The translations under genes were made by a program, and so were the position numbers. This document shows positions 202-17,153 of a stretch of 20,813 nucleotides of DNA, piece by piece (positions within the stretch are counted from its first letter, which is position 1; the number at the start of each line of letters is the position of its first letter). The notes beneath the pieces were generated by a model. It did no database searches. It saw only the letters and a list, made by a program, of their open reading frames with translations, and was not told the DNA's origin. The stretch comes from a virus, in the IMG/VR virus record IMGVR_UViG_3300037493_004757, positions 1 to 20,813 of that record. The stretch is one strand, 5' to 3'.

Positions 202-2262
202 TTAGCGATTAGTGGGCAACAGCTTTGGCTGGGTTATGAGCCGGTCCATAGAAGAAGAATACTTACAGAGCGTTGTCCAAGGCTCTATACCCTTATCTAA
301 GCATATCTGATAGTTAGAACATAAAAGGCAGTCCATCTTGGTTGTGAGCATTTGCCCGATATTCTGCCGGTTTGCCAGAGCTATCAGCTGCTGTTGCTCG
401 ACGGTATGCGCTCCTACGAGACGATAAACGACTGTCTTGGACTTTTGTCCGATACGGAAATTACGGGCTCTTGACTGGAACCAGGCATCAGGCGACCACG
501 GGCGACTGTAATAAATAGAGTACTGCGCAGCCGTAAGCGTAATAGCGATACCCGTATTTACTTGGCTCAGGTATACACGGGTACCCTTGTCATTCTGAAA
601 CAGGTTCTCGTAGTGCTTAATGTTCTTTGTGTTGGACCCATCAACGCGAACATACCCATATTTATTCTTCTTTAGGAGTTCTTCGATGTGATTCAACTCA
701 GCGGTAAAGTGCGCCCAGATAATCACCTTATGTCCCTCAGTTTCCAGGATGTCTTCTAGTAGGTCTCCCAGCGCGTCTAGCTTTGGGTTCTGACCATAAA
801 ATAGAATTGAGGGTACGGGGTTTTTACCTAACGAATCTTTAACGCAGTCTTTGTCGCCAGGTGTGATACCTGCTTCGAAGCAAGCTTGTAACGAAGGACA
901 CTGGTCACACGGAGCGTTCTCATCCTCTTTGGGTACGTAATAGAATCCGCTACAAATTTGTAACAGCTTGCCCAAACGCGTAGAACCCTGAGATAAATCA
1001 ATCTTGCCACCTTCTCCTTCCAACGAAAATTCTTTGACCGCCTTGTTGTAATCTTTGGTCTGCCCCGCGCTTAAGTAGTACAGGACGTCTTGGTCTCGCT
1101 GCTCCGGTAACTGCACGCAGTCCAAAAGCTTTCGTTCACTCGACACCGTGTTTACGCGCGCATTGATAATGTGCATGTTCTTGTAGCCGGTAACCACATG
1201 CTCGTTCCACTTTGAGTGCTCGCAGAATTTCTTGACGAACGTGAACCACTGCTCGGGCATAAGCGCAGGGTGCAGAATCTTCAGCTGTGTATAGAAGTCA
1301 CGTGGGTCACCAATCGTGGGCGTACCTGACAGCATGTACCTGCGCGTAGCCTTTGCCGACAGCGCTGTGATAACCTTTGTCCGTTGACTCTTGATGCTCT
1401 TGACGCGGTGTGCCTCGTCGAGGACCAGAACCTTGAAGTCCAGAGAGGAAAGAAAAGGCGGGGTTGGTCCGACAATTTTATCTACCTCTGCCTCTATCTG
1501 CGCAGGAGTTAAGTTTCCGGCGTAATAGGCGGCTAAGTAGTGGATTTGTTGCTTGTCTTCGGGGAGGGTGGCTACTTTGTCCACGACACGTATGTGAGCA
1601 GGCGTGCTCCCCATGCGTTCTTTTTTCTTTAGCTCAGCAGCTTTAGAACAAAGTACAGGAACACCATAGAGCCTGGCAGTATCATAAGAGACAATAACAA
1701 TATCTTTGTTGATAGCTTCAAGGATTTTCCTTTCTTTTTGTTTCGCTGTTCCTGTAATCGTGATGGTAGATAGAGCGCCTGCTGTGTGCACGTCAGTTTC
1801 ACGCACCCAATTATCGACTGCGATAAGAGGACAAATAACAACTGCTTTTTCTCGTAGATGAAAGAGGGCGTCAAGAACAACTTTCGTCTTTCCTGTACCC
1901 ATTTCCCATCTAAGATACCAGCGGTAGTATGTAAGTAGTTCTGCGGTTCCGGTAAGCTGATGGTCATAGCTATCATATACCCCGCCCGTAGGGTGCTCAC
2001 GGACGAAACCATTCCAGTATTCCAGTGTTCTTGCATTGGTGTACGCCTTTGCTTCCTCTTCTTCTTCGAAGGCTTCCGCGCAGATTTCTTTGATGTCTCG
2101 TACCACAGCGTCTAGGAAAGGCTGGTACCCAGGAAAAATCCAGCTTCTGTGCGACGGTGCATACTGCGCTCCAAACACCCTTTCCCAAGAATCCTTTGGA
2201 TTTCCCTGAACATAAAACGCCGGGGTTCCACCAATTTTGATGAACTTCACTTTGTTTTCCAT
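202..2262 (-). CDS. SNF2-family (SF2) DNA helicase/translocase with HARP-like N-terminus and two Cys4 motifs
   Basis: This is a 686-residue ATP-dependent DNA translocase of the SNF2 group of superfamily 2. Numbered from the ATG at 2262, it has Walker A MGTGKT (121-126), DEAH (282-285), SGTP (312-315), a motif V-like SQVNTGIAITLT (566-577) and motif VI QSRARNFRIGQ (596-606). The RIGQ ending is typical of SNF2 proteins. Residues 30-60, with a basic/Trp/Phe-Pro pattern, resemble the HARP module of SMARCAL1-like annealing helicases; that part is inferred. Two matching C-x2-C-x5-C-x11-C motifs (452-473 and 645-666) may bind zinc or an iron-sulfur cluster. A GTG two codons upstream (2268) is open, but AAGGA lies only a few bases from it and 8 bases from the ATG, so the ATG is preferred. 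A role in replication, recombination or fork restart is likely but not shown. Confidence 0.9.
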   Translation of the reverse strand: MENKVKFIKIGGTPAFYVQGNPKDSWERVFGAQYAPSHRSWIFPGYQPFLDAVVRDIKEICAEAFEEEEEAKAYTNARTLEYWNGFVREHPTGGVYDSYDHQLTGTAELLTYYRWYLRWEMGTGKTKVVLDALFHLREKAVVICPLIAVDNWVRETDVHTAGALSTITITGTAKQKERKILEAINKDIVIVSYDTARLYGVPVLCSKAAELKKKERMGSTPAHIRVVDKVATLPEDKQQIHYLAAYYAGNLTPAQIEAEVDKIVGPTPPFLSSLDFKVLVLDEAHRVKSIKSQRTKVITALSAKATRRYMLSGTPTIGDPRDFYTQLKILHPALMPEQWFTFVKKFCEHSKWNEHVVTGYKNMHIINARVNTVSSERKLLDCVQLPEQRDQDVLYYLSAGQTKDYNKAVKEFSLEGEGGKIDLSQGSTRLGKLLQICSGFYYVPKEDENAPCDQCPSLQACFEAGITPGDKDCVKDSLGKNPVPSILFYGQNPKLDALGDLLEDILETEGHKVIIWAHFTAELNHIEELLKKNKYGYVRVDGSNTKNIKHYENLFQNDKGTRVYLSQVNTGIAITLTAAQYSIYYSRPWSPDAWFQSRARNFRIGQKSKTVVYRLVGAHTVEQQQLIALANRQNIGQMLTTKMDCLLCSNYQICLDKGIEPWTTLCKYSSSMDRLITQPKLLPTNR

Positions 2263-2294
2263 GTACACTATCCTTTATTGAGACTGGAGGTTCT
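2263..2294. promoter_or_regulatory. Divergent intergenic region with two back-to-back ribosome binding sites
   Basis: Only 32 bp separate the leftward helicase start (ATG at 2262) from the rightward portal start (ATG at 2295). The minus strand carries AAGGA 8 bases from the helicase ATG; the plus strand carries GGAGG (2286-2290) 4 bases from the portal ATG. There is no room for two full promoters here, so transcription of each gene must begin inside the other gene's coding sequence or the two transcripts must overlap. No clear -35/-10 pair was found. Confidence 0.5.
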
Positions 2295-4010
2295 ATGACG
2301 ACTGATACCATGAGGTTGTTCGACCCCTACCACGGGGGTATGGATGGGACTCATTCTAACCCTTATTACCAATACTCGCAGCTCTACACGCCTAAGCGGC
2401 TTAAGGAACTGTTTGTCTGGTGTGAGTACCTCTTTTACCAAAGTCCGCACATATTTGCGGCTCTGCGTAAATTTGGTGAATACCCAATTACTAAAATCAC
2501 GTACGAGACCGTTAACGAACATCTCAAGCAGCGGCATAAAGACTTACTAGAAAAGACTCTCCGCGTAAGGGAGTTTCTTATTAAAGCGTCTCTGGACAAA
2601 TATGTCTACGGGAATAGCTTCGTCTCTATGTACCAGCCTTTTGTGCGCTACTTAAAGTGCCCAAAATGCAAAGCTCTCACGAACATCAAGAACACTACGT
2701 ATACCTTCGATGTTACGAACTTGAAGTTCACCTACGAGTGCCAAGCGTGTAAGAGCAAGGTCACAGCTACCGAAGACCAGATTGAGGACAGAAAGCTGTT
2801 GCTCAGCAAGGGCATCAACTTCATTCGCTGGGACGCCAAAGATATCGACATCGACCATAACCCCCTGACGGGTGAGTCGGAGTACTACTACAAGATTCCT
2901 CAGCAAGTGGTGAGCCGCGTTAACTCAGGTCACAAGACCCTGATTGATACGATGCCCATCGGCTTCTTGAAAGCTATCAAAGCGCGCAAGCCCTTCAAGT
3001 TCGCACGCGACGCCATCTTCCACATGAAGGTAGGTGCGCCTGCGGGTATCAATCCTCAGTGGGGCTTGCCGCCTATCCTAGCGGCGCTGGAGCGTTTTCA
3101 CTTCACCCAGATTCTGAGGAAGGCCAATGAAGCAATCGCTCTCGACTATCTGGTGCCGTTCCGTGTTCTGCACCCAACGCAATCATCTGGAGTCGCTGAC
3201 CCCGTACAGCAAATCAGTCTCACCAAGTGGAAGGACGAGCTCGACCTCAACCTCCGATTACACCGTAAAGACCCGCTCCACATTATGTACGCCCCAATCC
3301 CGGTGGGAATGGTTCAAATTGGTGGCCAGGGACGCGCACTGCTCACCTTGGGAGAAATCCAAGAAGCTGAGAAGAGCATCGTTGCCACCCTTGGAATCCC
3401 CATGGAGTTCCTCTATGGCGGTCTCACGGGTAGAGGCATGGAAGCTACTCTTAGGATGATTGAGAACCAGCTCTCAACCCATATCGCGGACGTTGTCGAT
3501 CTCATGCAGTGGATGGACGACAAGTGCTCTGAGTTCTTGGGATGGGAGAAGATTACGCTGGGTCTCACGCCTTTCCGTATGGTTGACGACTTCGAGAAGC
3601 AACAGCTCATGTACAACGTGTGGCAAACAGGAAAGCAAACTGGCTCCCAGGTTCTTTCGGACACCACGATGTGCGAAATCTTTGAGATAGACCCTCTACG
3701 TGAGGAGACGCGTATCAAAGAAGAGACGCTACGCGGTGTGCGTATCAGTAACGCTATGCAGGTTGAAATGCAGAAGCAGCAGAACAACCTGGCGCAGCAG
3801 TCGCAACAAGAAGCTCTGCAAGGACCGTCTAACTATAACCAGCAGCAGGTTATAGCTAATGCGGACCAAATCGTTAGTGAGCTGTCTCAGTTAGAGTACG
3901 GAGCTAAGAAGAGCCGCCTACATCAGTTGCAAGTTGAGGACTTTGTGCTGTACGCTGTAGTAACCCAACGAATGGAACTACAAAACAAGCAGCAGACACA
4001 AGGGATGTGA
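2295..4010 (+). CDS. Phage portal protein with embedded zinc-ribbon-like insert
   Basis: This 571-residue protein is most likely the portal, the dodecameric ring at the capsid vertex through which DNA is packaged and ejected. Supporting features are the YVYGNSFVSMYQP segment (103-115), the segment around LGIPMEFLYGGLTGRGMEATLR followed by a long helix and a DDFEKQQ helix, and a Gln-rich coiled C-terminus; this order is familiar from portals of large phages. An insert holds CPKC (122-125) and CQAC (149-152), spaced like a zinc ribbon. The start has GGAGG four bases upstream. A second Met at codon 6 is less likely because its spacing to GGAGG would be about 19. The next gene follows directly. 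The assignment rests on pattern recognition only. The sequence itself shows the Cys pairs and overall length. Confidence 0.75.
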   Translation: MTTDTMRLFDPYHGGMDGTHSNPYYQYSQLYTPKRLKELFVWCEYLFYQSPHIFAALRKFGEYPITKITYETVNEHLKQRHKDLLEKTLRVREFLIKASLDKYVYGNSFVSMYQPFVRYLKCPKCKALTNIKNTTYTFDVTNLKFTYECQACKSKVTATEDQIEDRKLLLSKGINFIRWDAKDIDIDHNPLTGESEYYYKIPQQVVSRVNSGHKTLIDTMPIGFLKAIKARKPFKFARDAIFHMKVGAPAGINPQWGLPPILAALERFHFTQILRKANEAIALDYLVPFRVLHPTQSSGVADPVQQISLTKWKDELDLNLRLHRKDPLHIMYAPIPVGMVQIGGQGRALLTLGEIQEAEKSIVATLGIPMEFLYGGLTGRGMEATLRMIENQLSTHIADVVDLMQWMDDKCSEFLGWEKITLGLTPFRMVDDFEKQQLMYNVWQTGKQTGSQVLSDTTMCEIFEIDPLREETRIKEETLRGVRISNAMQVEMQKQQNNLAQQSQQEALQGPSNYNQQQVIANADQIVSELSQLEYGAKKSRLHQLQVEDFVLYAVVTQRMELQNKQQTQGM

Positions 4011-4013
4011 TTG

Positions 4014-4580
4014 ATGGACGACTTCCGCTCAGCGATACAGACCGCACAACCCGGAGAGTTCACAAACGTTTTTGGCGACAATAAGGGCGGAAACCTTATA
4101 GGGCAAAAAACAGCTCCAGACCATGTGGCTGACCCCTTAAAGGTTCTGTACTTTTCCAAGGTGTTTGTGATTTGGAAGCCGTACTCGTACTGTAGCCAGT
4201 GCTCGGCAGCTCTTAACGCGGGGGAAGCAATCTGTCCGGATGACTCTGCGTACACGTGCCCCCACACAAACAACCACGAGTACGAAGAGACTATCAATCT
4301 CTGTCTGACCGGCAAAGCTCTCTTACAGAAGCAGGACTTTGTTGACCTCAAAGACGGTACTCGTATTGCGCACGTGATGTGGCTAATTGCTGACCCTAAG
4401 CACGTAGCAGAGCTCAAGCGCAAAAAAGAAGCAGCGGACAAAGAGAAGGTGTACCCACCTAATCCGGCGAAGGTCTTTGCGGAAGAAGATCAAAAAAGAA
4501 AAGCGGAGCCTGTGACGACCACAGACCCCGCAGAGGAACAGAATGCCGAGCCCCTTACAGAAGAAGAAGTAACGCGATAA
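4014..4580 (+). CDS. Small cysteine-rich (putative zinc-binding) protein downstream of portal
   Basis: This 188-residue protein starts at an ATG three bases after the portal stop. A TTG one codon earlier (4011) is in frame, but AGGGA (4001-4005) is 8 bases from the ATG, so the ATG is chosen. The middle contains a YCSQC pair followed by an ICPDD..YTCPHT segment and histidines, which could form a zinc finger of the C-x2-C...C...C/H type. The C-terminal 60 residues are highly charged (Lys/Glu-rich), low in complexity and probably disordered. No family is recognised. Tight coupling to the portal gene suggests a head, portal or packaging accessory role; this is inference only. Confidence 0.7.
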   Translation: MDDFRSAIQTAQPGEFTNVFGDNKGGNLIGQKTAPDHVADPLKVLYFSKVFVIWKPYSYCSQCSAALNAGEAICPDDSAYTCPHTNNHEYEETINLCLTGKALLQKQDFVDLKDGTRIAHVMWLIADPKHVAELKRKKEAADKEKVYPPNPAKVFAEEDQKRKAEPVTTTDPAEEQNAEPLTEEEVTR

Positions 4581-4687: not shown

Positions 4688-7600
4688 ATGACTACTCCGA
4701 ACGACGTCCAGCCTGTTTTGGTCGATGCCGCCACGAAGCGAGACCATATTCGGCAGAAGGTTATGGAAGGAATATTGGAATCCTTCCCTATCAAGTCGCG
4801 GAGTAAAACGATTGAGATTTCTGACTTGAGTTTCGTTAAGAAGGACTACTCTCCTTCCGAGCAAAAAGCGGCCATCCTAGAAGGCAACTCCTTGTTCGAG
4901 CCGGTACACGGTACGGTGCGTGTGCGGGATAACGCCACGGGAGAGATTACGGATGAAGCCAAGAAGTTCACCTTGGCCAAGATTCCGTGGTTCACACCAA
5001 GGCACACGCTCATCGTTGGAGGCAACGAATACTCTGTTTCAAGCATGGTTCGTCCCAAGCCAGGCGTGTACGCACGCAAGAGAGCCAACGGAATCCTTGA
5101 AGCGAACTTCAATATGCAAGGAGCCGCCAACTTCAACGTGACCATGGACCCTGAAAAGGGCGAGATGCAGTTTGAGTATGGGGCGTCGAAGATTCCGCTC
5201 TACCCAATCTTGACGCGGGCAGGCATTACGCACGAGCAGATTGCGGCTAAGTGGGGAGACGCACTCGCTGAGAAGAATCGTCAGATGGCGCCTAAGAATA
5301 TTTCAGGCGTTGTTGACCGGCTGTACAACAAAGTCGTTCCTACGTATGGGCGTGAAGCTCTTAAGCTGACAACCCCGGAAGACAAGATCAAAGAGGTCTT
5401 CAGCCGGTACTCAAAAGCGTCCATGAACCCCGACGTCAATAAAGCGACCCTGGGGCACCCGTACGACACGGTTACGCCTGCCGCTATTCTTGACGCTTCA
5501 CACAAGGTTCTGAAGATTTTCAAGAACAATGACGAGGTTGATGACCGCGATAGCCTGGACTTCAAGTCTCTGTATATGGTGGATGACTTCTTTAAAGAGC
5601 GCATCAAGCTGGATGCTCGAGACATCGCACGTAAGACAGCTATCAAGATTGAGGCCAAGAAAGACCTGAAGAGTGCGTTAGCCTCTGCACCGTTTACGCC
5701 GGGCCTCTTGAAGTTCATCAACACCTCTCAGCTCGTGGCAGTACCAACGCAGACAAATCCCATGGAGCTCATTGACTCCTCGATGAGAGTAACGTCACTG
5801 GGTGAGGGTGGCATTAGCTCTGAGCGCGCTATCCCCATGGAAGCCCGTATGGTTCACCCCACGCAGATTGGGGCACTCGACCCTATGCGTACGCCAGAAT
5901 CTTTCAGAGCCGGTGTGGATGTGCGTGCGGCTCTTGCCCTTCACAAAGATGCAAAGGGCAACATCTACGTGCCGCTCATTAACGTGAAGAACGGAAAGAA
6001 GACTGAATTCGTTCGCTCTGGCTTGATACAGACGAGTACTGTGGCGTTCCCTCAGCAGAAACTAGAAGGGCAAGTAGATGCGCTCGTTAATGGTGTTGTG
6101 CGCAAGGTTAACGCCTCCCAAGTGGATTATCAAATTCCACACTCAAGTTTTATGTACAGCCCGACGACGAACCTCATCCCCTTCATGGAATCTAGTCAGG
6201 GTAACCGTCTTATCATGGGCTCTAAGTACCAGACTCAGGCCCTTTCGTTGGTTGACCGTGACGTGCCTTGGGTCCAGTCTGTCTCACATACCGGAAAGCC
6301 AATGGTTGAAGTCATGGCGCAGATGGTGAACCCGCATGCTACAGCTGCGGGTACCATCTCGAAGATTGATAAGGACTACATCCACATTAAGCCGACCTCG
6401 GGTGGTGACGCCGTTAAGGTCCACTACGAAACCAACTTTCCATTGGCGGCTAAGTCATTCTTGCACCACACGCTCAACGTAAAAGTTGGGGATAAGGTAA
6501 CATCAGGGCAGCAGCTTGCAGACTCCAACTACACCAAAGACGGAAAGCTCGCCCTCGGCAAGAACATGTCTGTGGCGTATATGCCCTATAACGGAGCCAA
6601 CTCCAACGACGCCATTGTCATCAGCGAAACTGCAGCGAAGAAACTCACATCTGAAAAAATGTATAAAGTGGTTGTGTCAAGAGACCCCGACATGACCTTT
6701 GACCGTAACAAGCACCAGATTTACTACGGCCAAAACTACACGAAGGACCACTACAAACTTCTCGATGATGAAGGCGTTGTTAAGCCGGGCATGAAGCTCA
6801 ACGCTGGAGACCCTGTCATCTTTGGTTTGAGAAAATCTCAGATGTCCCCTGACGACGTTTTGCTGGGGCGTTTGCACAAGTCTTTGGTGAAGCCTTTCAG
6901 AGATGCTTCGGATGTTTGGAACCACCACCACGAAGGTGAGGTTATTGACGTTGTTAAGACTGGAAGTCGCATCGCTGTAACCATCAAGGTTAAAGAGCCT
7001 ATGCAGGTCGGCGACAAAATGGCTGGAAACTTCGGCGACAAAGGTGTGGTTGCCCAGATTGTGCCTGACGACCACATGATTCAAGACGCAACGGGAAAGC
7101 CTCTCGATGTGCTCTTGACCTCTGCCGGTGTGGTTTCGCGTATTAACCCGTCGCAGATACTAGAAGCCGCTGTAGGTAAAGTTGCAGCCAAGACGGGTAA
7201 GCCTATTTTGCTAGAGAACTTCTCTGGTAGAGACAATGTCCAGTACGTTAAAGACTTGCTGAAAAAACATGGCGTTAAAGATAAAGAGACCGTCTTTGAC
7301 CCTATGACAGGTAAGAGCATTCCCAATGTCTTCGTAGGCAACAAATACGTCTTCAAGATGTTCAAGAGCACGGACGTCAACTACAGCGCCCGTAACATCG
7401 GCAGCTATGACGCCAACATGCAGCCCACTAAGGGTGGAGACATGAGTGCGAAGGGCATCGGCAAGATGGAGTTCGATGCTCTTGTCGCGCATAACGCTCG
7501 CAATGTTCTTCTTGAAACCTCCACTTTGAAGAGCCAGAAGAATGACGAGTTTTGGAAGGCGCTGCAGATGGGCTTGCCCACTCCCCCTCCCAAGACTTCT

Positions 7601-9052
7601 TTTGCTGCTGACAAGTTCATGAACATGCTTGTGGGTGCTGGCGTTAAGGTTACGCGCGACAACTCACGTATTGGCCTGGGGCCGCTCACAGATGCGGACA
7701 TCATGAAGATGTCTGCCGGTGAAATCAAAGAACCCAAGCTTGTTCGGGCAAAAGATTTGAAGCCTGAGAAAGATGGCTTGTTCGACCCAGGCGTTACTGG
7801 CGGTCTTAAGGGAGAACGTTGGGCGCATATCGACTTAGCTGAGCCTATTGTGAACCCCCTCTTCGAAGACCCCACACGGCGCTTGTTAGGTCTGACTGGC
7901 ACAGCGCTCACCAAGCTTCTTCAGGAGAAGGGTGGCGCACACGTTAAAAAAGAGCTGGCCAAGATTGACCTGAGCAAGAAAAAGAAAGAGCTCGAGGCCA
8001 AGAGCAAAACGGCGTCGGGGGCGGACTTAGATGGTATCGTGAAGTCGTTGAAGTACATCTCTGCTTTACAGAGTAATGGCCTGACACCTGATAAGGCGTA
8101 CGTCATCTCGAAGATTCCAGTTGTGCCGCCAACAACGCGCCCCGTTGTCCCTGGTAAGGGCGGGCAGGAGCTCATCTACGGAGACATCAATCCTCTGTAC
8201 CGCGATTTACTATTCGTAAACAATCAGTTCAAGGAAGTAAAGCAAGCGGGGACGATGCCCTTCGAAGAGGCCAAGATGCGCCCCATGCTGCATCAGGCAG
8301 TAGGCGCTGTGTTTGGTGTGAACGACCCAGTGACTACGAAGTCTGTTGCGCGCGGACACAAAGGGTTCTTGACCTACATCGCTGGCGCGGGAAGTCCCAA
8401 GTACGGCTTCTTCCAGTCCAAGCTCATGAAGAAGCAGCAGGACATCACAGGCCGAGGAACCATTGTCCCTGACACGACGCTGGGTATCGACCAGGTGGGT
8501 CTCCCTGAGGACATGATTTGGACCATGTACGAAAAGTTTCTGATACGTCGTTTGGTGCAGCAGGGCTACCAGCCTCTCGAAGCCCAGGACATGATAAAGG
8601 CTCGGCACCCGGCGGCTAAGGAAGCTTTCATGAGGGAAATCAAGGAAAGGCCCGTGATGCTAAACCGGGCTCCCACTCTACACCGGTACAGTTTAGTGGG
8701 CGCTTTCCCTGTACCGACACCCGGTAAAACGATCCGCGTGAACCCATTTATTGAATCGGGAATGAATGCAGATTACGATGGAGATACGGTTATGATTCAT
8801 GCCCCGGTGGGGCAGAATGCCATTGAGGAGGTAAAGAAGATGACGACATCCAACCTCCTTTACAGCGACAAGTCAAGGAATGATTTGCTCGTCGTTCCGA
8901 AGCACGAGGCCACAATGGGCCTGGCCCATGCTAGCCAGCAAGACGAGCACAACAAGTCCGTTCACTACGAAAATAAAGCTGACGCCATGAAGGACTACAA
9001 CAGCGGTAAAATTACCCTGGGCACCCGAGTCACGATAGGCGGCAATAAGTGA
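4688..9052 (+). CDS. DNA-directed RNA polymerase: beta subunit fused to N-terminal half of beta'
   Basis: A single 1454-residue chain contains nearly all of beta (about 1-970) followed by beta' up to just past the catalytic barrel. Beta landmarks: HPTQIGALDPMRTPES (390-405), LIPFMESSQGNRLIMGS (496-512), GDKMAGNFGDKGVV (775-788) and GSYDANMQPTKGG (905-917). Beta' landmarks: KPEKDGLFDP (1025-1034), the PPTTRPVVPGKGG switch region (1147-1159), LNRAPTLHR (1325-1333) and the metal-binding NADYDGD (1360-1366), the active-site Mg2+ aspartates. The beta' N-terminal zinc ribbon is absent. The chain stops at a point matching roughly residue 550 of E. coli beta'. AAAGGA sits five bases before the ATG; 107 bp separate it from the gene before. 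The final codons overlap the next gene's GTG by 4 nt. It must work with the beta' C-terminal subunit encoded at 10521-12326. No sigma or alpha subunit is seen in the window. Confidence 0.95.
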   Translation: MTTPNDVQPVLVDAATKRDHIRQKVMEGILESFPIKSRSKTIEISDLSFVKKDYSPSEQKAAILEGNSLFEPVHGTVRVRDNATGEITDEAKKFTLAKIPWFTPRHTLIVGGNEYSVSSMVRPKPGVYARKRANGILEANFNMQGAANFNVTMDPEKGEMQFEYGASKIPLYPILTRAGITHEQIAAKWGDALAEKNRQMAPKNISGVVDRLYNKVVPTYGREALKLTTPEDKIKEVFSRYSKASMNPDVNKATLGHPYDTVTPAAILDASHKVLKIFKNNDEVDDRDSLDFKSLYMVDDFFKERIKLDARDIARKTAIKIEAKKDLKSALASAPFTPGLLKFINTSQLVAVPTQTNPMELIDSSMRVTSLGEGGISSERAIPMEARMVHPTQIGALDPMRTPESFRAGVDVRAALALHKDAKGNIYVPLINVKNGKKTEFVRSGLIQTSTVAFPQQKLEGQVDALVNGVVRKVNASQVDYQIPHSSFMYSPTTNLIPFMESSQGNRLIMGSKYQTQALSLVDRDVPWVQSVSHTGKPMVEVMAQMVNPHATAAGTISKIDKDYIHIKPTSGGDAVKVHYETNFPLAAKSFLHHTLNVKVGDKVTSGQQLADSNYTKDGKLALGKNMSVAYMPYNGANSNDAIVISETAAKKLTSEKMYKVVVSRDPDMTFDRNKHQIYYGQNYTKDHYKLLDDEGVVKPGMKLNAGDPVIFGLRKSQMSPDDVLLGRLHKSLVKPFRDASDVWNHHHEGEVIDVVKTGSRIAVTIKVKEPMQVGDKMAGNFGDKGVVAQIVPDDHMIQDATGKPLDVLLTSAGVVSRINPSQILEAAVGKVAAKTGKPILLENFSGRDNVQYVKDLLKKHGVKDKETVFDPMTGKSIPNVFVGNKYVFKMFKSTDVNYSARNIGSYDANMQPTKGGDMSAKGIGKMEFDALVAHNARNVLLETSTLKSQKNDEFWKALQMGLPTPPPKTSFAADKFMNMLVGAGVKVTRDNSRIGLGPLTDADIMKMSAGEIKEPKLVRAKDLKPEKDGLFDPGVTGGLKGERWAHIDLAEPIVNPLFEDPTRRLLGLTGTALTKLLQEKGGAHVKKELAKIDLSKKKKELEAKSKTASGADLDGIVKSLKYISALQSNGLTPDKAYVISKIPVVPPTTRPVVPGKGGQELIYGDINPLYRDLLFVNNQFKEVKQAGTMPFEEAKMRPMLHQAVGAVFGVNDPVTTKSVARGHKGFLTYIAGAGSPKYGFFQSKLMKKQQDITGRGTIVPDTTLGIDQVGLPEDMIWTMYEKFLIRRLVQQGYQPLEAQDMIKARHPAAKEAFMREIKERPVMLNRAPTLHRYSLVGAFPVPTPGKTIRVNPFIESGMNADYDGDTVMIHAPVGQNAIEEVKKMTTSNLLYSDKSRNDLLVVPKHEATMGLAHASQQDEHNKSVHYENKADAMKDYNSGKITLGTRVTIGGNK

Positions 9053-10524
9053 AGAAGCAAGACGTCCTGGATTACTACGGAACTCCACATGTGCAGACCG
9101 CTTTACTCCGTAATTTCTACGGTGACAGCGCGCTGACACTAGTGAAGCACGACGAGGGAGAACCTTTCTACCGTAGGAATCTGGGAGGGGAGCCCATCAA
9201 GCTCAACAACCCCAGTCAGCTCAAGCGACTTCTAGACCAGCGCACAGTAGAGTTTCATCCTTCGATTGGCAAAAGCACGAACGTCATCTGGGTGGATATC
9301 GATCCTGGCAAGGACGTGACTACGCATGAGCTTAAACCAATCGTAAAGCAAATCGACACAATCCTAAAGTCCATACCCGAAGTAACCAAGACCTCCTTGG
9401 CCTTCTCGGGTGGCAGGGGCTTCTACGTTCGTGGGCACCTTAAAGATGACATGGACACGACCAAGGCCCGTGAGCTCTTAAGTGATAAGCTCAAGCCTAT
9501 GGTCGCCAGAGACCCCAAGTTTGTCATGGCACCCCCGCAGTCTTCGCAGATTCGGCTGGATATTTCTACACTGCATGACAAGGGCTCCATAAGGGGCTTG
9601 TATTCTCTGAACCATGAGACGGGTTTAGTATCTATCCCCTTGAAGCGCCATGAGCTTGATGCCTTCGACGCAAGCAAGGATGCTAAGCCTAAGAAGGTCA
9701 TGGGCGAGTTTGCGCCCGGCATTCCATCATCGAGGACGACGCATGATTTACCTTCGCTCAAAGACGTGGATTGGACGATGTCTGTCCAGCACCATGACGC
9801 GGTTAAAGCTGGTCCTCACTGGGATTTACGCCTTGTTGACCCGGACACTGGGCACGCGCATTCGTGGGCTGTTCCAAAAGCAAAGTTCCCTGAGGCTGGA
9901 GGAAAACCCCTCCTTGCTGTGCAGACGCCTACACACACATCTGACTATGCTCTCTCCTTTGGAGAGGGTGGCCCTAAGCAGATACATACAGGATATGGAC
10001 GGGGTTCCGTTGAAATCAAACATAAGGAGAAGGTAAATATCCTGTCTTCTGGTCCAGATAGTCTAAGATTTGAGAGAGTAGACGGAAAAGAAAAAGAACG
10101 TTACGCTCTAGTTCGCACCAACAAGGATAAATGGCTTATGAGAAATGTCACACCGAAGGTTGCGCAGTTTTTGAAGCACGCATTCGACCAGGGCTACTAC
10201 GACATGCTACGCAAGCTAGGTGCTGATGGCGACCCCAACGCCGCTATGGGTTCTCAAGGTGCTCAAGGACAACAAGGCGGCGGTGAGCAGACTTCATCTG
10301 AATCCGGTCGCCCGATTCCTGACGACGACAGCCAACTTCCTGCGGGTCAGTTGGCCGAGGCTCTTGGGAATCTTGATGAGACCAGCGCCGACAATGACCC
10401 AGTCGGAAGCGTTCAGGGTAACCCAGTGGACAAGCACCTCGAGCGCGAGTCTGAATGGGGTAACCCTTTCTCCGTAGGTATGGTCGCTGGTTCTTCACCA
10501 ATCATTCCTGGCGGTAATGGATGA
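9049..10524 (+). CDS. Primase-polymerase (AEP) fused to LigD-type 3'-phosphoesterase domain
   Basis: This 491-residue protein lies between the two halves of RNA polymerase beta'. The N-terminal part (about 60-200) has archaeo-eukaryotic primase signatures: VDIDPG (82-87, the metal-binding D-x-D), FSGGRGFYV (119-127) and IRLD followed by GLYSLNHETGLVSIPL (168-198). The usual histidine of the second motif is Tyr126. Residues 240-366 match the 3'-phosphoesterase domain of bacterial DNA ligase D: HHD (248-250), HWDLRL (257-262), SWAVPK (272-277), His296 and GYGRG (315-319), keeping the likely catalytic His/Asp/Arg set. Residues 390-491 are Gly/Gln/Ser/Asp-rich and probably disordered. There is no ligase domain. 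The family role would be end repair or gap filling during non-homologous end joining, or priming. It starts at GTG (9049), overlapping the previous stop as GTGA with only a weak AGGCGG nearby, so translational coupling is likely. Confidence 0.82.
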   Translation: MKKQDVLDYYGTPHVQTALLRNFYGDSALTLVKHDEGEPFYRRNLGGEPIKLNNPSQLKRLLDQRTVEFHPSIGKSTNVIWVDIDPGKDVTTHELKPIVKQIDTILKSIPEVTKTSLAFSGGRGFYVRGHLKDDMDTTKARELLSDKLKPMVARDPKFVMAPPQSSQIRLDISTLHDKGSIRGLYSLNHETGLVSIPLKRHELDAFDASKDAKPKKVMGEFAPGIPSSRTTHDLPSLKDVDWTMSVQHHDAVKAGPHWDLRLVDPDTGHAHSWAVPKAKFPEAGGKPLLAVQTPTHTSDYALSFGEGGPKQIHTGYGRGSVEIKHKEKVNILSSGPDSLRFERVDGKEKERYALVRTNKDKWLMRNVTPKVAQFLKHAFDQGYYDMLRKLGADGDPNAAMGSQGAQGQQGGGEQTSSESGRPIPDDDSQLPAGQLAEALGNLDETSADNDPVGSVQGNPVDKHLERESEWGNPFSVGMVAGSSPIIPGGNG

Positions 10525-12326
10525 CAAACGGTACTCCTCTAGGCCAGCACCTCATCAATGAGCTTATGCCTGACGGCTATAAGTTCAGCGGGCCGATTAC
10601 GAAGAAGGTCATGACGGGCACGATGACGCGCTTGTCTCGTACTGACCCTCATACGTATGCTCGCATTGTTGGTGACGTTAAGCGCCTAGGGGACCAGCTT
10701 GCTACCTCTGAAGGTCTTTCTATTGGTCTGGACGACATCACGCCGCACTACGAGCTGCGTGACAAGATGATGAAAGACGCTGAGAAGCAGTTCCGTGCTG
10801 CGAATACCGACGACAAAAAGCGCGCTGTTCTCGAGTCTTTCCAGCCCAAATTTAAAGAAGACACATCCAAGCATCCAGGGTCTATGACCCTTCAAGTTGC
10901 GTCTGGTGCTCGTGGTAATGCCATGCAGTACATGAAGATTGTGTCTTCTCCGGTGTATGCGCGCAGTGGTCGTGGCCAAGTAGAGCCGTGGCTAATCAAG
11001 CGCTCCTACTCTGAAGGCATGACTGCGGCAGACAACTGGGTAGCTGGCAGCGAAGCCGTTCTTGATACTATCAAGTCTCAGACTTCAGTATCAGAGCCAG
11101 GTGAGCTCTCGAAGATTCTTGTCAGCAACATGAGCAACCTCTTGGTCACCGAGTCCGACTGTGGGACCAAGAACGGTATCCTCATGAATGCTCTGGACCA
11201 TAACGTCATCGACCGTTTTCTAGCTCGACCAGCCGGGGCATTTAAGGCAGGGACACTAATCACACCTATTAATCAACCCAGCATTGCTAGGGCTGTTGGG
11301 GTCATGCAGATTACGGTGCGTTCTCCTCTGACGTGTGAAGCTGGTGACGGTATCTGCCAGAAGTGCCAAGGCTTGAACGAGAAGGGTCAGCACCATGATG
11401 TCGGTACGAATGTAGGCGTACGTTCGGCCCAAGCCATGGCTGAGCCTTTGACACAGCTCTCCTTGAGTACTAAGCACGGTGTAAAGTCTGCGAAGGATGA
11501 CCGCCTGCAGCTCCAGGGTGTGGAAGGCTTTAGGCAGGCTATCGAGTCGCCTAACTTGTTCTTACACAAGGCCACGCTTTCCACGTTGGACGGCAAGGTA
11601 ACCAAAATTACCAAAGCTCCCCAAGGTGGACAGTTCGTAACTGTCGGCGAAAAAGAGCACTACGTAACCCCTAACCTCAGCGTGAAGTTCAAGGTGGGGG
11701 ACATGGTAGAAAGAGGCGACGCGCTTAGCACAGGCATTCCGAAGCCCGACGAGGTAGTGAAATACAAGGGCCTTGGCGCTGGCCGAGTTTACCTTGTAAA
11801 TACACTCAAGGACCTATATGCGTCCCAGGGCATCAGCCTTGACCAGCGTCACTTTGAGTTGCTGGCGCTTGGTGAACTCAACCAAGTAAAGATTCTCAAC
11901 GACCCCCACAACAACTTTATCCGTGGGGATATCGTGAACTACAACAACCTGAAGTCTGTGCTGGCGAAAGACGTGAAGAACGTTTCGCTGCATGAGGCCG
12001 CAGGTGAGGTTCTTGGAAAAGAATACTTTCACTACTCAGCGGGAACGCGACTCACACCTTCAGTATCAGACTTCCTAAAGAAGAATGGTGTGAAGGATGT
12101 GTTCATAGCGCCTCGTGCCCCCGAGGTTGAGTTCGTAATGAAGCCAGCGACACGCGCGCCGTTATTCTATCCAGACTGGATGGCGCGTTTGTCCCACAGA
12201 AATTTGAAGGCGACGTTGCAGCAAGCAGCCCATTTTGGAGAGGTCTCAGATATTCACGGTGCCCACCCTGTTCCGGCCTATGTTTTTGGTGCAGAGTTTG
12301 GTCAGGGCGAGAAGGGTAAATACTGA
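10521..12326 (+). CDS. DNA-directed RNA polymerase beta' subunit, C-terminal half
   Basis: This 601-residue chain resumes beta' where the fusion protein ends. TPLGQHLINELMPDG (5-19) matches the segment that follows the catalytic domain in bacterial beta', and LSIGLDDI (66-73) matches the conserved SVGIDDM segment. SGARGNAMQ (128-136) is the bridge helix. Four cysteines (214, 272, 279, 282) reproduce the second beta' zinc site, and TQLSLSTKHG (311-320) is the trigger loop with its catalytic histidine (His319). The Met and Arg that precede it in E. coli are Leu and Ser here. A C-terminal DWMARLSHRN segment corresponds to the conserved beta' end. The ATG overlaps the previous stop as ATGA, with only weak GGCGG upstream, implying coupled translation. 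Its partner is the product at 4688-9052. Confidence 0.93.
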   Translation: MTNGTPLGQHLINELMPDGYKFSGPITKKVMTGTMTRLSRTDPHTYARIVGDVKRLGDQLATSEGLSIGLDDITPHYELRDKMMKDAEKQFRAANTDDKKRAVLESFQPKFKEDTSKHPGSMTLQVASGARGNAMQYMKIVSSPVYARSGRGQVEPWLIKRSYSEGMTAADNWVAGSEAVLDTIKSQTSVSEPGELSKILVSNMSNLLVTESDCGTKNGILMNALDHNVIDRFLARPAGAFKAGTLITPINQPSIARAVGVMQITVRSPLTCEAGDGICQKCQGLNEKGQHHDVGTNVGVRSAQAMAEPLTQLSLSTKHGVKSAKDDRLQLQGVEGFRQAIESPNLFLHKATLSTLDGKVTKITKAPQGGQFVTVGEKEHYVTPNLSVKFKVGDMVERGDALSTGIPKPDEVVKYKGLGAGRVYLVNTLKDLYASQGISLDQRHFELLALGELNQVKILNDPHNNFIRGDIVNYNNLKSVLAKDVKNVSLHEAAGEVLGKEYFHYSAGTRLTPSVSDFLKKNGVKDVFIAPRAPEVEFVMKPATRAPLFYPDWMARLSHRNLKATLQQAAHFGEVSDIHGAHPVPAYVFGAEFGQGEKGKY

Positions 12327-12886
12327 TGACTCCTTTTGAGACTGGACGGGCAGATACCTTTTCTGCGTTGGGCTTGGAGAAGGTTGCTTTAGTTGTGCCT
12401 CATATTCCTCCCGCAGCTGCAGCTACCGCAGGACGTGCAGCAGGCAACGTTTCTAAGACTGTGGCCAAAGAACCAGGCTTGGGTTTTTGGGGTCACGCCA
12501 AGCGCACCCTTATTGGTCAGCCCCTTGAAGCTATGCGGCAAATTGGCTCGGGAAAAGCGTTCAAGGGTGACGGACTCTTTGCTGAGGGGCTAAAGGCGCC
12601 TAAGCTCTGGGAAAAAGGAATGCTGTATGGTATTCCTGCCTATATGGGATACAATATCCTTAAAGGAAATGACCCAGACAAAGCGCAGCAGATTGGCGGT
12701 TTGGCCGCAAGCACTCTCGCAGGAAATGCTCTGTGGGGTCCTCTGGGTATGGTTGGCGGTATGGTTGCTATGCCTATCGCAGACCGCATTGGCAGAGGCG
12801 CTGTGAATATTGGACAGAAGCTAACCGGTACTTTTGGTTCGGACCCACAGAATCCGTATCACCAGTACCAACAGCAGCATCAGTAA
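12326..12886 (+). CDS. Gly/Ala-rich hydrophobic protein of unknown function
   Basis: This 186-residue protein starts at an ATG sharing one base with the beta' stop (TGATG), so it is probably translated by re-initiation. The N-terminus contains a GLEKVA motif, one of many K-hydrophobic-A peptides in this region. Residues 95-155 are rich in Gly and Ala with GxxxG spacing and long uncharged stretches, including GNALWGPLGMVGGMVAMPIA, that could form membrane-interacting or tightly packed helices. The C-terminus is Gln/His/Pro-rich. No family is recognised. Its position between the polymerase and probable virion proteins suggests a structural or internal virion component, which is inference. Confidence 0.75.
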   Translation: MTPFETGRADTFSALGLEKVALVVPHIPPAAAATAGRAAGNVSKTVAKEPGLGFWGHAKRTLIGQPLEAMRQIGSGKAFKGDGLFAEGLKAPKLWEKGMLYGIPAYMGYNILKGNDPDKAQQIGGLAASTLAGNALWGPLGMVGGMVAMPIADRIGRGAVNIGQKLTGTFGSDPQNPYHQYQQQHQ

Positions 12887-14507: not shown

Positions 14508-17153
14508 ATGCCAACTCCTATGTCTCCTGATGTTCAAGCCTATGGTCAGCTTCCTTCTGCCGAACAAGCCGAGGAGCTATTCAGGCAAAAATTCTCGAGC
14601 ATGGCGTATAACGTGATGTTCGCCAAGTTTCCGGACTTAGCGCAGCAGATAGTGACCTTTAAGCTGCTTGAAGTAGACGCGCAAAAGGGTAAGGGCGTCG
14701 GCGCATTTATTTTCATGCAGGACAGTAAGCCCATTTATATCCCGGTTATCATGAGCGACAGCCAGCTCAAGCCGATGGATATCTTCTACTTTAAGGACCT
14801 CAACATTTTCCTCCCCATGTCCAAAGAGTGGCTGGAGGAAGTGTCGAAGATGTCGCTTGAAGAGATGGGCCAGCCCTCGGACATTCCTCAGGGTGTCCCG
14901 CGTGACATTGATATCCGCAATGTGGTCATGCCTCCCTTTACGGCATCGGGCCGAGTTGGTCTTGCGTCTGACCAAAGCGAGATGGACTTCCAGGCTAAGG
15001 CCCTCTTCAAGGAAGCCGAGAACAACAACTTCGATATCCATCCTAGGTTCTTGGAGTTTATCGGTAACGCTGCTCCCCGTGGCGTACTTGACGGCGTAAA
15101 GATTGCGTTTGAGAAGCACCCGAAGCTTCTCAAGAAGATGGCGCACTTTCATGGGTCGAGCTCGGTGCTCAAAGCATTCAAGCAAGGTTATGCCCGTGTT
15201 AGCTCACAAGAAGCTTTACAGACAAAGACTGCTGCTCTGCGTGCTAGTGGTAAAGTTCGCGTCTTCACGCACAACGCGTCGTCTGAAGAACTCAAAGAGG
15301 CTTTTGGAAAGACTGCTGCTGCAGCTTACAGCCAGATTCTCCGTAGGGGACTCGCTATCTCGGACACGAGACATAGCATTGAAAAAATCGCTGTGAAGAT
15401 TGAGCACAACGTGCGTTTAAGCGAGCCAGGCAGCACGGCTGGTTTTTACCGGCTGTACTTTATGGACGCTCCCCCCGAGATTTATTACGTGGTGCCCAAT
15501 CCGAAGGGCAGCAGCCAGTGCACCGTAAGTAACGACGACTACTACTCGTTCTACGGCGACACAAATAACCAGCACAAGAACGCCACGACGTACCTCATCA
15601 TCAATAAAGATGGCAAAGAGGTGTGGTGTACTAATCGCGTTGTTGGCGAGCACATTCCTGATGGTAGCCAGACCCTAAACAACTACCACTGGATTAAAGC
15701 TCTCGTTCACGGTAAGGCCCGTAATGCTACGCCGACAGTGCATGACTACGGCTTCTTCTTGAACACGCTTGAGAATGGTATGGTCCAAGCGACCAAGCCC
15801 TTCTGGATTCATTCCATCACGGATACCAAGGGCATCAAGAAAGTCACAGCCGACTACTCTGGCGGTACGAGCTACGTTATCGATAACAACACGAGCCGGG
15901 ATAAGATTAACGTCACACAAGAAGTGGTGATGATTCCTCCGGGCGCTAAGTGGGTGGCGTCTCGTACGGGCGTGTCTGAGAACGACAAGTACAGCATCCA
16001 GAGCTCTATTGGCCGTCATAGCATCATCTCCGACCCCAAGCTCATCTCGCACTGGATGGACGAGAAGCTGCAGACAGACAATGCTTCTTCCGTGAACGTG
16101 AAGAAGGCGGGCCTTGAGGAGTACTGGGTTGACCGTGAACCAGGCGCGCTGCACTTCACTCAGGCCATTGAAAAGATTGCAACGGGCTACGGCATCTCCG
16201 TACAAGACGCTGCCGGTGTTCTCCTTGAAATCGAGAAGGGCAACAACGCCTTCATGTACGCGTTGCCCAAGACCAAGGTCGCTTCTTGGTCTGGACTCGC
16301 CAAGCTAGCTCAGCCGGGTCAAGAAGGTCCTATGCAGGGCCAGGGTCCGGCTCAGGGTGGCCAGCCCCCGATGGCGCCTGAGGGCGGCGGCGGTATGCCG
16401 ATGGACCCGTCTATGGGAGGTATGGACCCATCAATGATGGGCATGGGCATGATGCCTCCAGCTGTCTCTCCGATGTCACCCACGGACCTCGCCATCGCTG
16501 AGGTTGTGGATAAGCTCACGCAAGAAAACCAACTGCGCATGCAGCAGTTGCAAGACCAGATGCAGCAACAGCAGCAGGCGCTTCAGCAGGAGTCAGAACA
16601 AAATAGTAGACTCGTGCAGGTACTGCAGCAGATCCAAACTAGGTCTCAGCAGATTAACCAAGCGACCGGAGGTGTGATACCGGCTGGCGCTGAGGCGTCT
16701 CCTGCTGTTGCTGCTCGTATGTTAGCTCCTGAGCCAGAGCCCGAGCAAGAGCCTCCCATGCAGCCGATGATGCCAGAGGGCAACATCAATCCGCAGATGG
16801 TGGCACAGCAAATCAATCCTCAGATGGCTGACGCCGCTGGCGACCTTGGTAATGCTGGCGTCTTCGATATGGCTGCCATGTCGATGCTCGCGGCTTCTCC
16901 AGTGCTGCACGACATCATCGCTACCTACGTGCCCAACCTTGAGAAAGCGGTCGATAACCTCGGGCGCATTCTTCTGACACTGTGGATGCAGGAGTCGGAC
17001 GTTAAGACTGCGATTGGTGACCTTGAGTACACGACTCTCGAAGACCGTCTCCGCACGGTGTTCAAGGGCCTGGGAGAGCTCGTCATCAAGATTAACCGTA
17101 ACGCGGTCAATCCGTCGCAGATGCCGCAGCAAGCGATGATGAACCAGCACTGA
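14508..17153 (+). CDS. Large multidomain probable virion protein, unknown family
   Basis: This 881-residue protein has a clear layout: a globular N-terminal region (1-300), a beta-rich region with many Tyr, Asp and Asn (about 300-540), a Gly/Met/Pro/Gln-rich flexible linker (603-660), a Gln-rich coiled coil (about 660-720), a Pro/Glu/Met-rich linker (738-770) and a helical C-terminal domain (775-865). It contains several IEKIA, KTA and KMA peptides, including two EKIA copies at 292-295 and 554-557. The Shine-Dalgarno sequence is weak (CAGG nine bases upstream), and a 114 bp leader with a hairpin precedes the gene. It follows a probably abundant protein and overlaps the next gene by one base. 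No enzymatic motif is seen. A virion structural or internal-head role is likely from context and composition. Confidence 0.78.
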   Translation: MPTPMSPDVQAYGQLPSAEQAEELFRQKFSSMAYNVMFAKFPDLAQQIVTFKLLEVDAQKGKGVGAFIFMQDSKPIYIPVIMSDSQLKPMDIFYFKDLNIFLPMSKEWLEEVSKMSLEEMGQPSDIPQGVPRDIDIRNVVMPPFTASGRVGLASDQSEMDFQAKALFKEAENNNFDIHPRFLEFIGNAAPRGVLDGVKIAFEKHPKLLKKMAHFHGSSSVLKAFKQGYARVSSQEALQTKTAALRASGKVRVFTHNASSEELKEAFGKTAAAAYSQILRRGLAISDTRHSIEKIAVKIEHNVRLSEPGSTAGFYRLYFMDAPPEIYYVVPNPKGSSQCTVSNDDYYSFYGDTNNQHKNATTYLIINKDGKEVWCTNRVVGEHIPDGSQTLNNYHWIKALVHGKARNATPTVHDYGFFLNTLENGMVQATKPFWIHSITDTKGIKKVTADYSGGTSYVIDNNTSRDKINVTQEVVMIPPGAKWVASRTGVSENDKYSIQSSIGRHSIISDPKLISHWMDEKLQTDNASSVNVKKAGLEEYWVDREPGALHFTQAIEKIATGYGISVQDAAGVLLEIEKGNNAFMYALPKTKVASWSGLAKLAQPGQEGPMQGQGPAQGGQPPMAPEGGGGMPMDPSMGGMDPSMMGMGMMPPAVSPMSPTDLAIAEVVDKLTQENQLRMQQLQDQMQQQQQALQQESEQNSRLVQVLQQIQTRSQQINQATGGVIPAGAEASPAVAARMLAPEPEPEQEPPMQPMMPEGNINPQMVAQQINPQMADAAGDLGNAGVFDMAAMSMLAASPVLHDIIATYVPNLEKAVDNLGRILLTLWMQESDVKTAIGDLEYTTLEDRLRTVFKGLGELVIKINRNAVNPSQMPQQAMMNQH

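Follow-up and report, generated by a model that had tools for sequence, protein, structure and literature searches.

A phage RNA polymerase with β fused to part of β′, a separate β′ C-terminal half and a PrimPol-phosphoesterase gene between them

The window analysed here is the entire viral record IMGVR_UViG_3300037493_004757, 20,813 bases long, and the question that it raises is how a multisubunit RNA polymerase (RNAP) came to be encoded as a β subunit fused to the N-terminal half of β′ (β-β′N), with the C-terminal half of β′ (β′C) as a separate protein and a gene for a primase-polymerase joined to a phosphoesterase (PrimPol-PE) lying in the gap between them. A first-pass annotation, made from the sequence alone, had drawn attention to this combination as unusual and possibly a new polymerase architecture. 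We find that the fused-then-split layout is stably shared by an entire phage clade and that the cut in β′ arose once in the phage polymerase tree. The PrimPol-PE gene, also gained once, is confined to one part of that tree.

The polymerase chains and the break in β′

The three genes follow one another closely (Table 1). The fusion gene and the PrimPol-PE gene share 4 nt (GTGA, 9049-9052), PrimPol-PE and β′C share another four (ATGA, 10521-10524), and the gene 3′ of β′C begins at 12326 with an overlap of 1 nt (TGATG). The open reading frame (ORF) coordinates thus bear out the two 4 nt overlaps of the first-pass annotation, as the Pfam matches given below do its identification of the inserted gene. 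Pfam recognizes Rpb2_6 (E-value 7e-48), Rpb2_3, Rpb1_1 and Rpb1_2 (8e-21) in the fusion protein and Rpb1_5 (1.5e-16) in the β′C protein. PDB β chains match the fusion over residues 34-1020 and β′ chains over residues 1031-1454, and β′ chains match the C half from about its fifth residue onward. Together with the NCBIfam models, these matches agree with the earlier description of a β-β′N fusion and a separate chain bearing the bridge helix and trigger loop.

The residues expected of an active polymerase are retained: the catalytic aspartates of NADYDGD, both β lysines, a second zinc site in the C half (C214, C272, C279 and C282 by alignment) and the trigger-loop histidine. The D[YF]DGD core was found in 121 of 124 N parts. 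A structure model of the C half, built from 33 sequences (mean predicted local distance difference test score, pLDDT, 79), overlays S. aureus β′ 662-1186 over 469 residues with a Z score of 32.8 and a root mean square deviation of 4.1. Judged by its motifs, bridge helix, trigger loop and predicted fold, the window polymerase is evidently a bacterial-type double-psi-barrel multisubunit RNAP.

The break itself costs β′ almost nothing. Of the 1147 positions in the NCBIfam rpoC model, 533 is the last matched by the N part and 550 the first matched by the C part. Alignment with E. coli RpoC puts the break in the loop between LHARVKV and TTVGRAIL, so that the two β′ parts of the window map onto adjoining stretches of one bacterial β′. 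Phage relatives with an uninterrupted β′ cross this point without extra residues, as in TITIAGKK-TTIGKEL of L095 and IVTINGYE-TTFGREK of L053 (loci from the survey below carry L numbers). The suggestion that essentially nothing had been lost therefore holds at the break, but it fails further upstream, where neither the fusion nor any of the phage relatives aligned there has the N-terminal zinc ribbon of β′ (about residues 66-100 in E. coli). A conserved tail resembling P...Y..G..F..G..G[KR]Y ends the β′ C halves and several fully fused phage chains (about 12265-12323 in the window) and is absent from E. coli β′.

Layouts of the polymerase among phages

Viral contigs were searched with alignments of each polymerase part, yielding about 130 loci, which together with the isolates reduce to 91 distinct phage polymerases. 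The division into β-β′N and β′C is found in 57 of these, one fused chain of about 2000-2500 amino acids (aa) in 21 and a three-piece layout in nine, the remaining four being from truncated contigs in which no C half was found. The two-piece layout is also that of cultured phages, namely Salmonella phage Arash (Gp206 and Gp216) and Vibrio phages D69, D181 and D148, whose fusion proteins are about 37% identical to that of the window; the suspicion that the combination is unusual, or a new architecture by itself, is thus not supported. In D181 β is further cut by a homing-endonuclease gene. That split lies near profile position 517, L069 and L120 have the same site, and a homing-endonuclease gene is seen at L005:13812-14429.

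On an IQ-TREE phylogeny rooted on E. coli, the layouts can be explained by three changes, the fewest possible. An SH-aLRT (Shimodaira-Hasegawa-like approximate likelihood ratio test) value of 100 supports the group with a cut β′, and the three-piece polymerases form one clade nested within it; FastTree agrees on this history of the layouts. The gain of PrimPol-PE is a single change on the IQ-TREE phylogeny, at the base of its clade of 19 sequences. One phage RNAP family spans nearly every subunit layout (a single chain, two chains divided at a new site, and three). Each layout change occurs once in the tree, so that the family serves as a natural experiment in how a multisubunit polymerase may be fused and divided with its active site kept intact.

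Our literature searches on the layout of the polymerase found no description of the fusion plus split, although its two components are each known, as the first-pass annotation had said. In the tethered β-β′ of Helicobacter and Wolinella (PMC3294249) and in the single-chain, far more diverged RNAP of crAss-phage (PMC7481178), β is joined to β′ but β′ is not separated. The virion and non-virion enzymes of phiKZ/AR9-type jumbo phages (vRNAP and nvRNAP) also have β′ split after the catalytic barrel, lack alpha, and include one packaged enzyme (PMC7598289); these phages differ in that β is also split, β and β′ stand apart and the genome codes for no sigma factor (PMC7824862), whereas the β of the window is one chain fused to β′N. 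Cyanobacterial and plastid RpoC1 and RpoC2 result from a cut in the same inter-domain region of β′, but there is no β fusion, and in cyanobacteria the beginning of the C chain lies about 20 residues beyond that of the window. With the two sites this far apart a cyanobacterial origin of the cut is not supported, and the cyanobacterial and phage cuts are probably independent.

The nearest named group appears to be the mReC polymerases of Weinheimer & Aylward (2020), which likewise come from tailed-phage contigs, many of them found in IMG/VR, and have β and β′ that are recognized by cellular profiles; a β-β′ fusion, a β′ split and a primase go unmentioned in the main text describing them (PMC7481178). 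The window shares this trait, being a tailed-phage record by its portal gene with β and β′ detected by cellular profiles. Likened in this way to the text of the paper rather than to its contig list, the window polymerase is best regarded as a phage polymerase of the mReC type and not as a new class of polymerase. The mReC enzymes form a group apart from cellular ones (PMC7481178); E. coli is the sole cellular row in our tree. Terminase PF03237 scored over its cut-off in five of 16 records, and capsid PF07068 matched none of the records and none of the controls, and so is uninformative about mReC membership.

The gap gene, the virion and competing explanations

PrimPol-PE matches Pfam LigD_Prim-Pol (8e-10) and the LigD_N phosphoesterase (2e-6); the second match, at 28.4 bits, is below the Pfam cut-off of 31.1 and is backed by PDB sequence and fold matches. 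The protein was modelled at a mean pLDDT of 77, its domains mostly exceeding 80, and the model matches the polymerases of non-homologous end joining (NHEJ) from Methanocella and M. tuberculosis, Prim-PolC, and archaeal LigD phosphoesterases. The two folds and the catalytic residues are those of the known LigD modules (M. tuberculosis LigD PolDom, Prim-PolC, and Methanocella Pol and PE), from which the phage protein differs by its phage-specific tail and by the company it keeps: profile searches that were positive in controls found neither Ku nor an ATP-dependent ligase in 11 relatives, whose records may be incomplete. On these searches the relatives show no complete bacterial NHEJ system. Nine residues (D83, D85, D171, H249, H257, D259, R261, H296 and Y300) are invariant in 19 PrimPol-PE homologues; from what is known of LigD we take D83, D85 and D171 (the DxD motif and motif III) and the histidine, aspartate, arginine and tyrosine residues of the phosphoesterase to be catalytic.

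The gene was found at 19 distinct polymerase loci, all of one clade. It lies in the gap wherever a contig has both halves, and is present as a single copy in each of the 11 long contigs tested. This gene order is accordingly common within one clade, and no account of it was found. A tblastn search found no relatives of PrimPol-PE in cultured phages, and a pattern search of 84,980 cellular genomes confirmed none.

The C-terminal tail of PrimPol-PE has a distribution of its own. It is homologous to a free-standing ORF of about 70-120 aa whose end coincides with, or shortly precedes, the start of β′C in sister clades (L025, L034, L035, L043, L059, L080, L083, L090, L094 and others), and in L007, which belongs to the PrimPol-PE clade, the tail ORF stands alone before β′C. 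In this part of the tree the small domain is therefore the most constant neighbour of β′C, and the enzyme has been joined to it; its occurrence both in a repair enzyme and as a lone gene suggests a connection, open to test, between transcription in these phages and the repair of DNA ends. A segment of the form F..G...L..LG is seen in the tail (about 10183) and near the starts of the next two proteins (about 12335 and 13008). Among relatives, 21 of 129 downstream genes have it, where shuffled sequences would give 3.7; the pattern was picked post hoc and so is a lead only, possibly to a capsid-targeting or scaffold signal.

The surroundings of the polymerase genes point to the virion. The order portal, RNAP, 881 aa protein and 237 aa protein is widely shared across all layouts and by Arash, the 881 aa protein having homologues in about 100 of the fetched loci and the portal in 104 of 136 scanned sequences. 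In Arash virions the homologue of the fusion, Gp206, gave 3516 spectra, the highest of all proteins and more than the major capsid protein (1333), and the C half Gp216 (1210), the portal Gp204 (877), Gp218 (1149) and the sigma factor Gp10 (467) were also detected; the authors label the chains only as β and β′ and propose a role in early transcription (PMC10585845). Profile searches found a sigma70 region-2 protein in ten of 11 clade relatives and in Arash and D69, and no alpha-type domain (RNA_pol_L) in these 13 records, with positive controls.

The explanation that we favour, with a probability of about 0.7 for the whole, is that of a virion-linked, two-chain RNAP with a single old cut and a PrimPol-PE gained in the gap. 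The fusion, PrimPol-PE and β′C genes would form the core of a transcription operon that is late and linked to the virion. Fusion and C half would assemble into an alpha-less core enzyme with one bacterial-type active site, to which the fusion would bring the magnesium-binding aspartates and catalytic lysines and the C half the bridge helix and trigger loop. A phage sigma factor probably directs the enzyme, which, from homology and gene order, is probably also packaged in particles of the window's clade and would transcribe the first phage genes. The break in β′ is best seen as an old, single cut, in the loop after the catalytic barrel, of a chain that was ancestrally fused; in the ancestor of the clade a LigD-type PrimPol-phosphoesterase would then have occupied the gap and fused to the small protein that precedes β′C. 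PrimPol-PE itself probably serves to process DNA ends or fill gaps, its expression being tied to that of the polymerase through translational coupling. Because cultured members exist and their particles are rich in the enzyme, assembly, sigma use and packaging are all open to test in the laboratory.

Several observations weigh against this explanation. The motif-II histidine (sxH) of PrimPol enzymes is a tyrosine in the window and in some relatives, while it is a histidine in several others. Negative profile searches can miss diverged proteins, DnaG having gone undetected in most records. The Arash fusion is only about 37% identical to that of the window and is unaccompanied by PrimPol-PE, and the authors of that study warn that abundant enzymes in the particles may be carry-over (PMC10585845). 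The window record is a 20.8 kb fragment and sigma was found in its relatives only, the predicted structures are of single chains (the C half and PrimPol-PE), and the root of the tree is a weak one, being a single bacterium on a long branch.

The strongest competitor, to which we would give somewhat less than even odds, is that PrimPol-PE is a passenger and the gap a permissive insertion site, with no working link to the polymerase. Unrelated genes do occupy the gap in other loci: a ferritin-like protein in L029, a LigD-PE and ligase in L025, L043 and L059, an SNF2 helicase and DUF5662 in L007, and several opposite-strand genes in the 4.7 kb gap of Arash, that of D69 being 0.64 kb and likewise devoid of PrimPol-PE. 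In L043 the gap ORF (5255-8089, 945 aa) has LigD-PE, ATP-ligase, DUF4269 and peptidase C39 domains in one frame. The phosphoesterase genes of L080 and L094 are far from those for RNAP, so that the association is recurrent and not universal. Against a passenger, PrimPol-PE is in its own clade always in the gap, in single copy and tightly coupled, and its tail corresponds to what in other loci is the gene immediately preceding β′C; moreover, LigD-PE genes recur beside RNAP in other layouts, in the gap of L025, L034 and L035 and, with a ligase, immediately 3′ of the single-chain polymerase gene in L053 and L060.

It seems unlikely that the polymerase is instead a non-virion enzyme of late transcription that is left out of the particle. 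The location of its genes in a structural operon would suit such an enzyme, as late-expressed enzymes may be encoded there, and carry-over is an option named by the Arash authors (PMC10585845), but in Arash both chains are detected and the fusion exceeds the major capsid protein (PMC10585845). A still less probable alternative is that PrimPol-PE is the replication primase or a repriming enzyme of the phage and merely happens to be encoded in the late operon. Primases of the archaeo-eukaryotic (AEP) type do serve in replication in other phages (PMC7824862), and a profile search found no DnaG N-terminal domain in 11 clade relatives; the same search also failed in D69, so its sensitivity is doubtful, the fold of PrimPol-PE is closer to NHEJ and gap-filling polymerases than to replicative primases, and the attached phosphoesterase suits the healing of ends. 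An error of assembly or sequencing can be rejected with near certainty as the source of the split, because numerous independent contigs have the same layout, the halves being separated by coding sequence and the start/stop overlaps being conserved.

A bolder extension of the virion-linked explanation, which we regard as doubtful, is that PrimPol-PE physically associates with the virion RNAP. Its tail would dock it to the polymerase or to the particle; the end-repair and gap-filling enzyme might then be co-injected with the RNAP and mend the genome on entry, at the site of the transcription machinery or in front of it.

Neighbouring genes and insertions in relatives

The positions of the polymerase features and of the other annotated genes of the window are collected in Table 1. 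The SNF2-type helicase gene, which is read on the strand opposite to that of the portal gene, has many homologues among the fetched loci.

Table 1. Genes, domains and motifs annotated in the window
Feature	Positions	Strand	Description and evidence
β-β′N fusion protein	4688-9052	+	1454 aa; β about 1-1010, β′N about 1028-1454; Pfam, PDB sequence matches, NCBIfam rpoB and rpoC
β double-psi-barrel motif GDKMAGNFGDKG	7010-7045	+	both catalytic lysines; alignment to bacterial β
β′ catalytic motif NADYDGD	8765-8785	+	three Mg-binding Asp; alignment
PrimPol-PE gap protein	9049-10524	+	491 aa, GTG start; Pfam, structure model, fold match
LigD-type primase-polymerase domain	9049-9708	+	residues about 1-220; motif I WVDID, motif II SGGRGFYVR, motif III RLD; alignment, fold match
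LigD-type 3′-phosphoesterase domain	9766-10146	+	residues about 240-366; Pfam, PDB, fold match
PrimPol-PE C-terminal tail	10174-10512	+	residues about 376-488; homology to small ORFs; mostly low confidence in model
β′ C-terminal half	10521-12326	+	601 aa; Pfam, alignment, fold overlay, NCBIfam
Bridge helix	11025-11132	+	C-half residues 169-204; single 36-residue helix in model; alignment
Trigger-loop region	11412-11543	+	C-half residues 298-341, conserved H319; alignment, model
SNF2-type helicase	202-2268	-	Pfam 3e-21
Portal protein	2295-4010	+	571 aa; 32% identity over 459 aa to Arash portal gp204
Conserved protein between portal and RNAP	4011-4580	+	189 aa; homologues in 38 loci
Protein following the C half	12326-12886	+	186 aa; 1 nt overlap with C half; ORF list, homologue scan
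Virion-protein homologue	14508-17153	+	881 aa; homologue of Arash gp218, a virion protein; sequence homology, homologue scan

Several relatives of the window polymerase have insertions at three sites. One lies between RTPE and S in L034 and L101. Another, with intein-like insertions of 329-362 aa, is between the catalytic lysines of β, where the sequence is interrupted between GDKLC...GN and SG..GNKG in L006, L011, L016, L021, L084 and L089; the inserts of L006 and L034 received no Pfam name. The third is directly after NADYDGD, with insertions of about 480-540 aa at L078:14099-15586 and L053:8126-9742 and in the fusion ORFs of L089, L008, L009, L034 and L100, and the two of these that were tested contain LAGLIDADG and intein-splicing domains by Pfam. 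Since L078 has the insertion and the window, 94% identical to it, has none, the element has moved recently.

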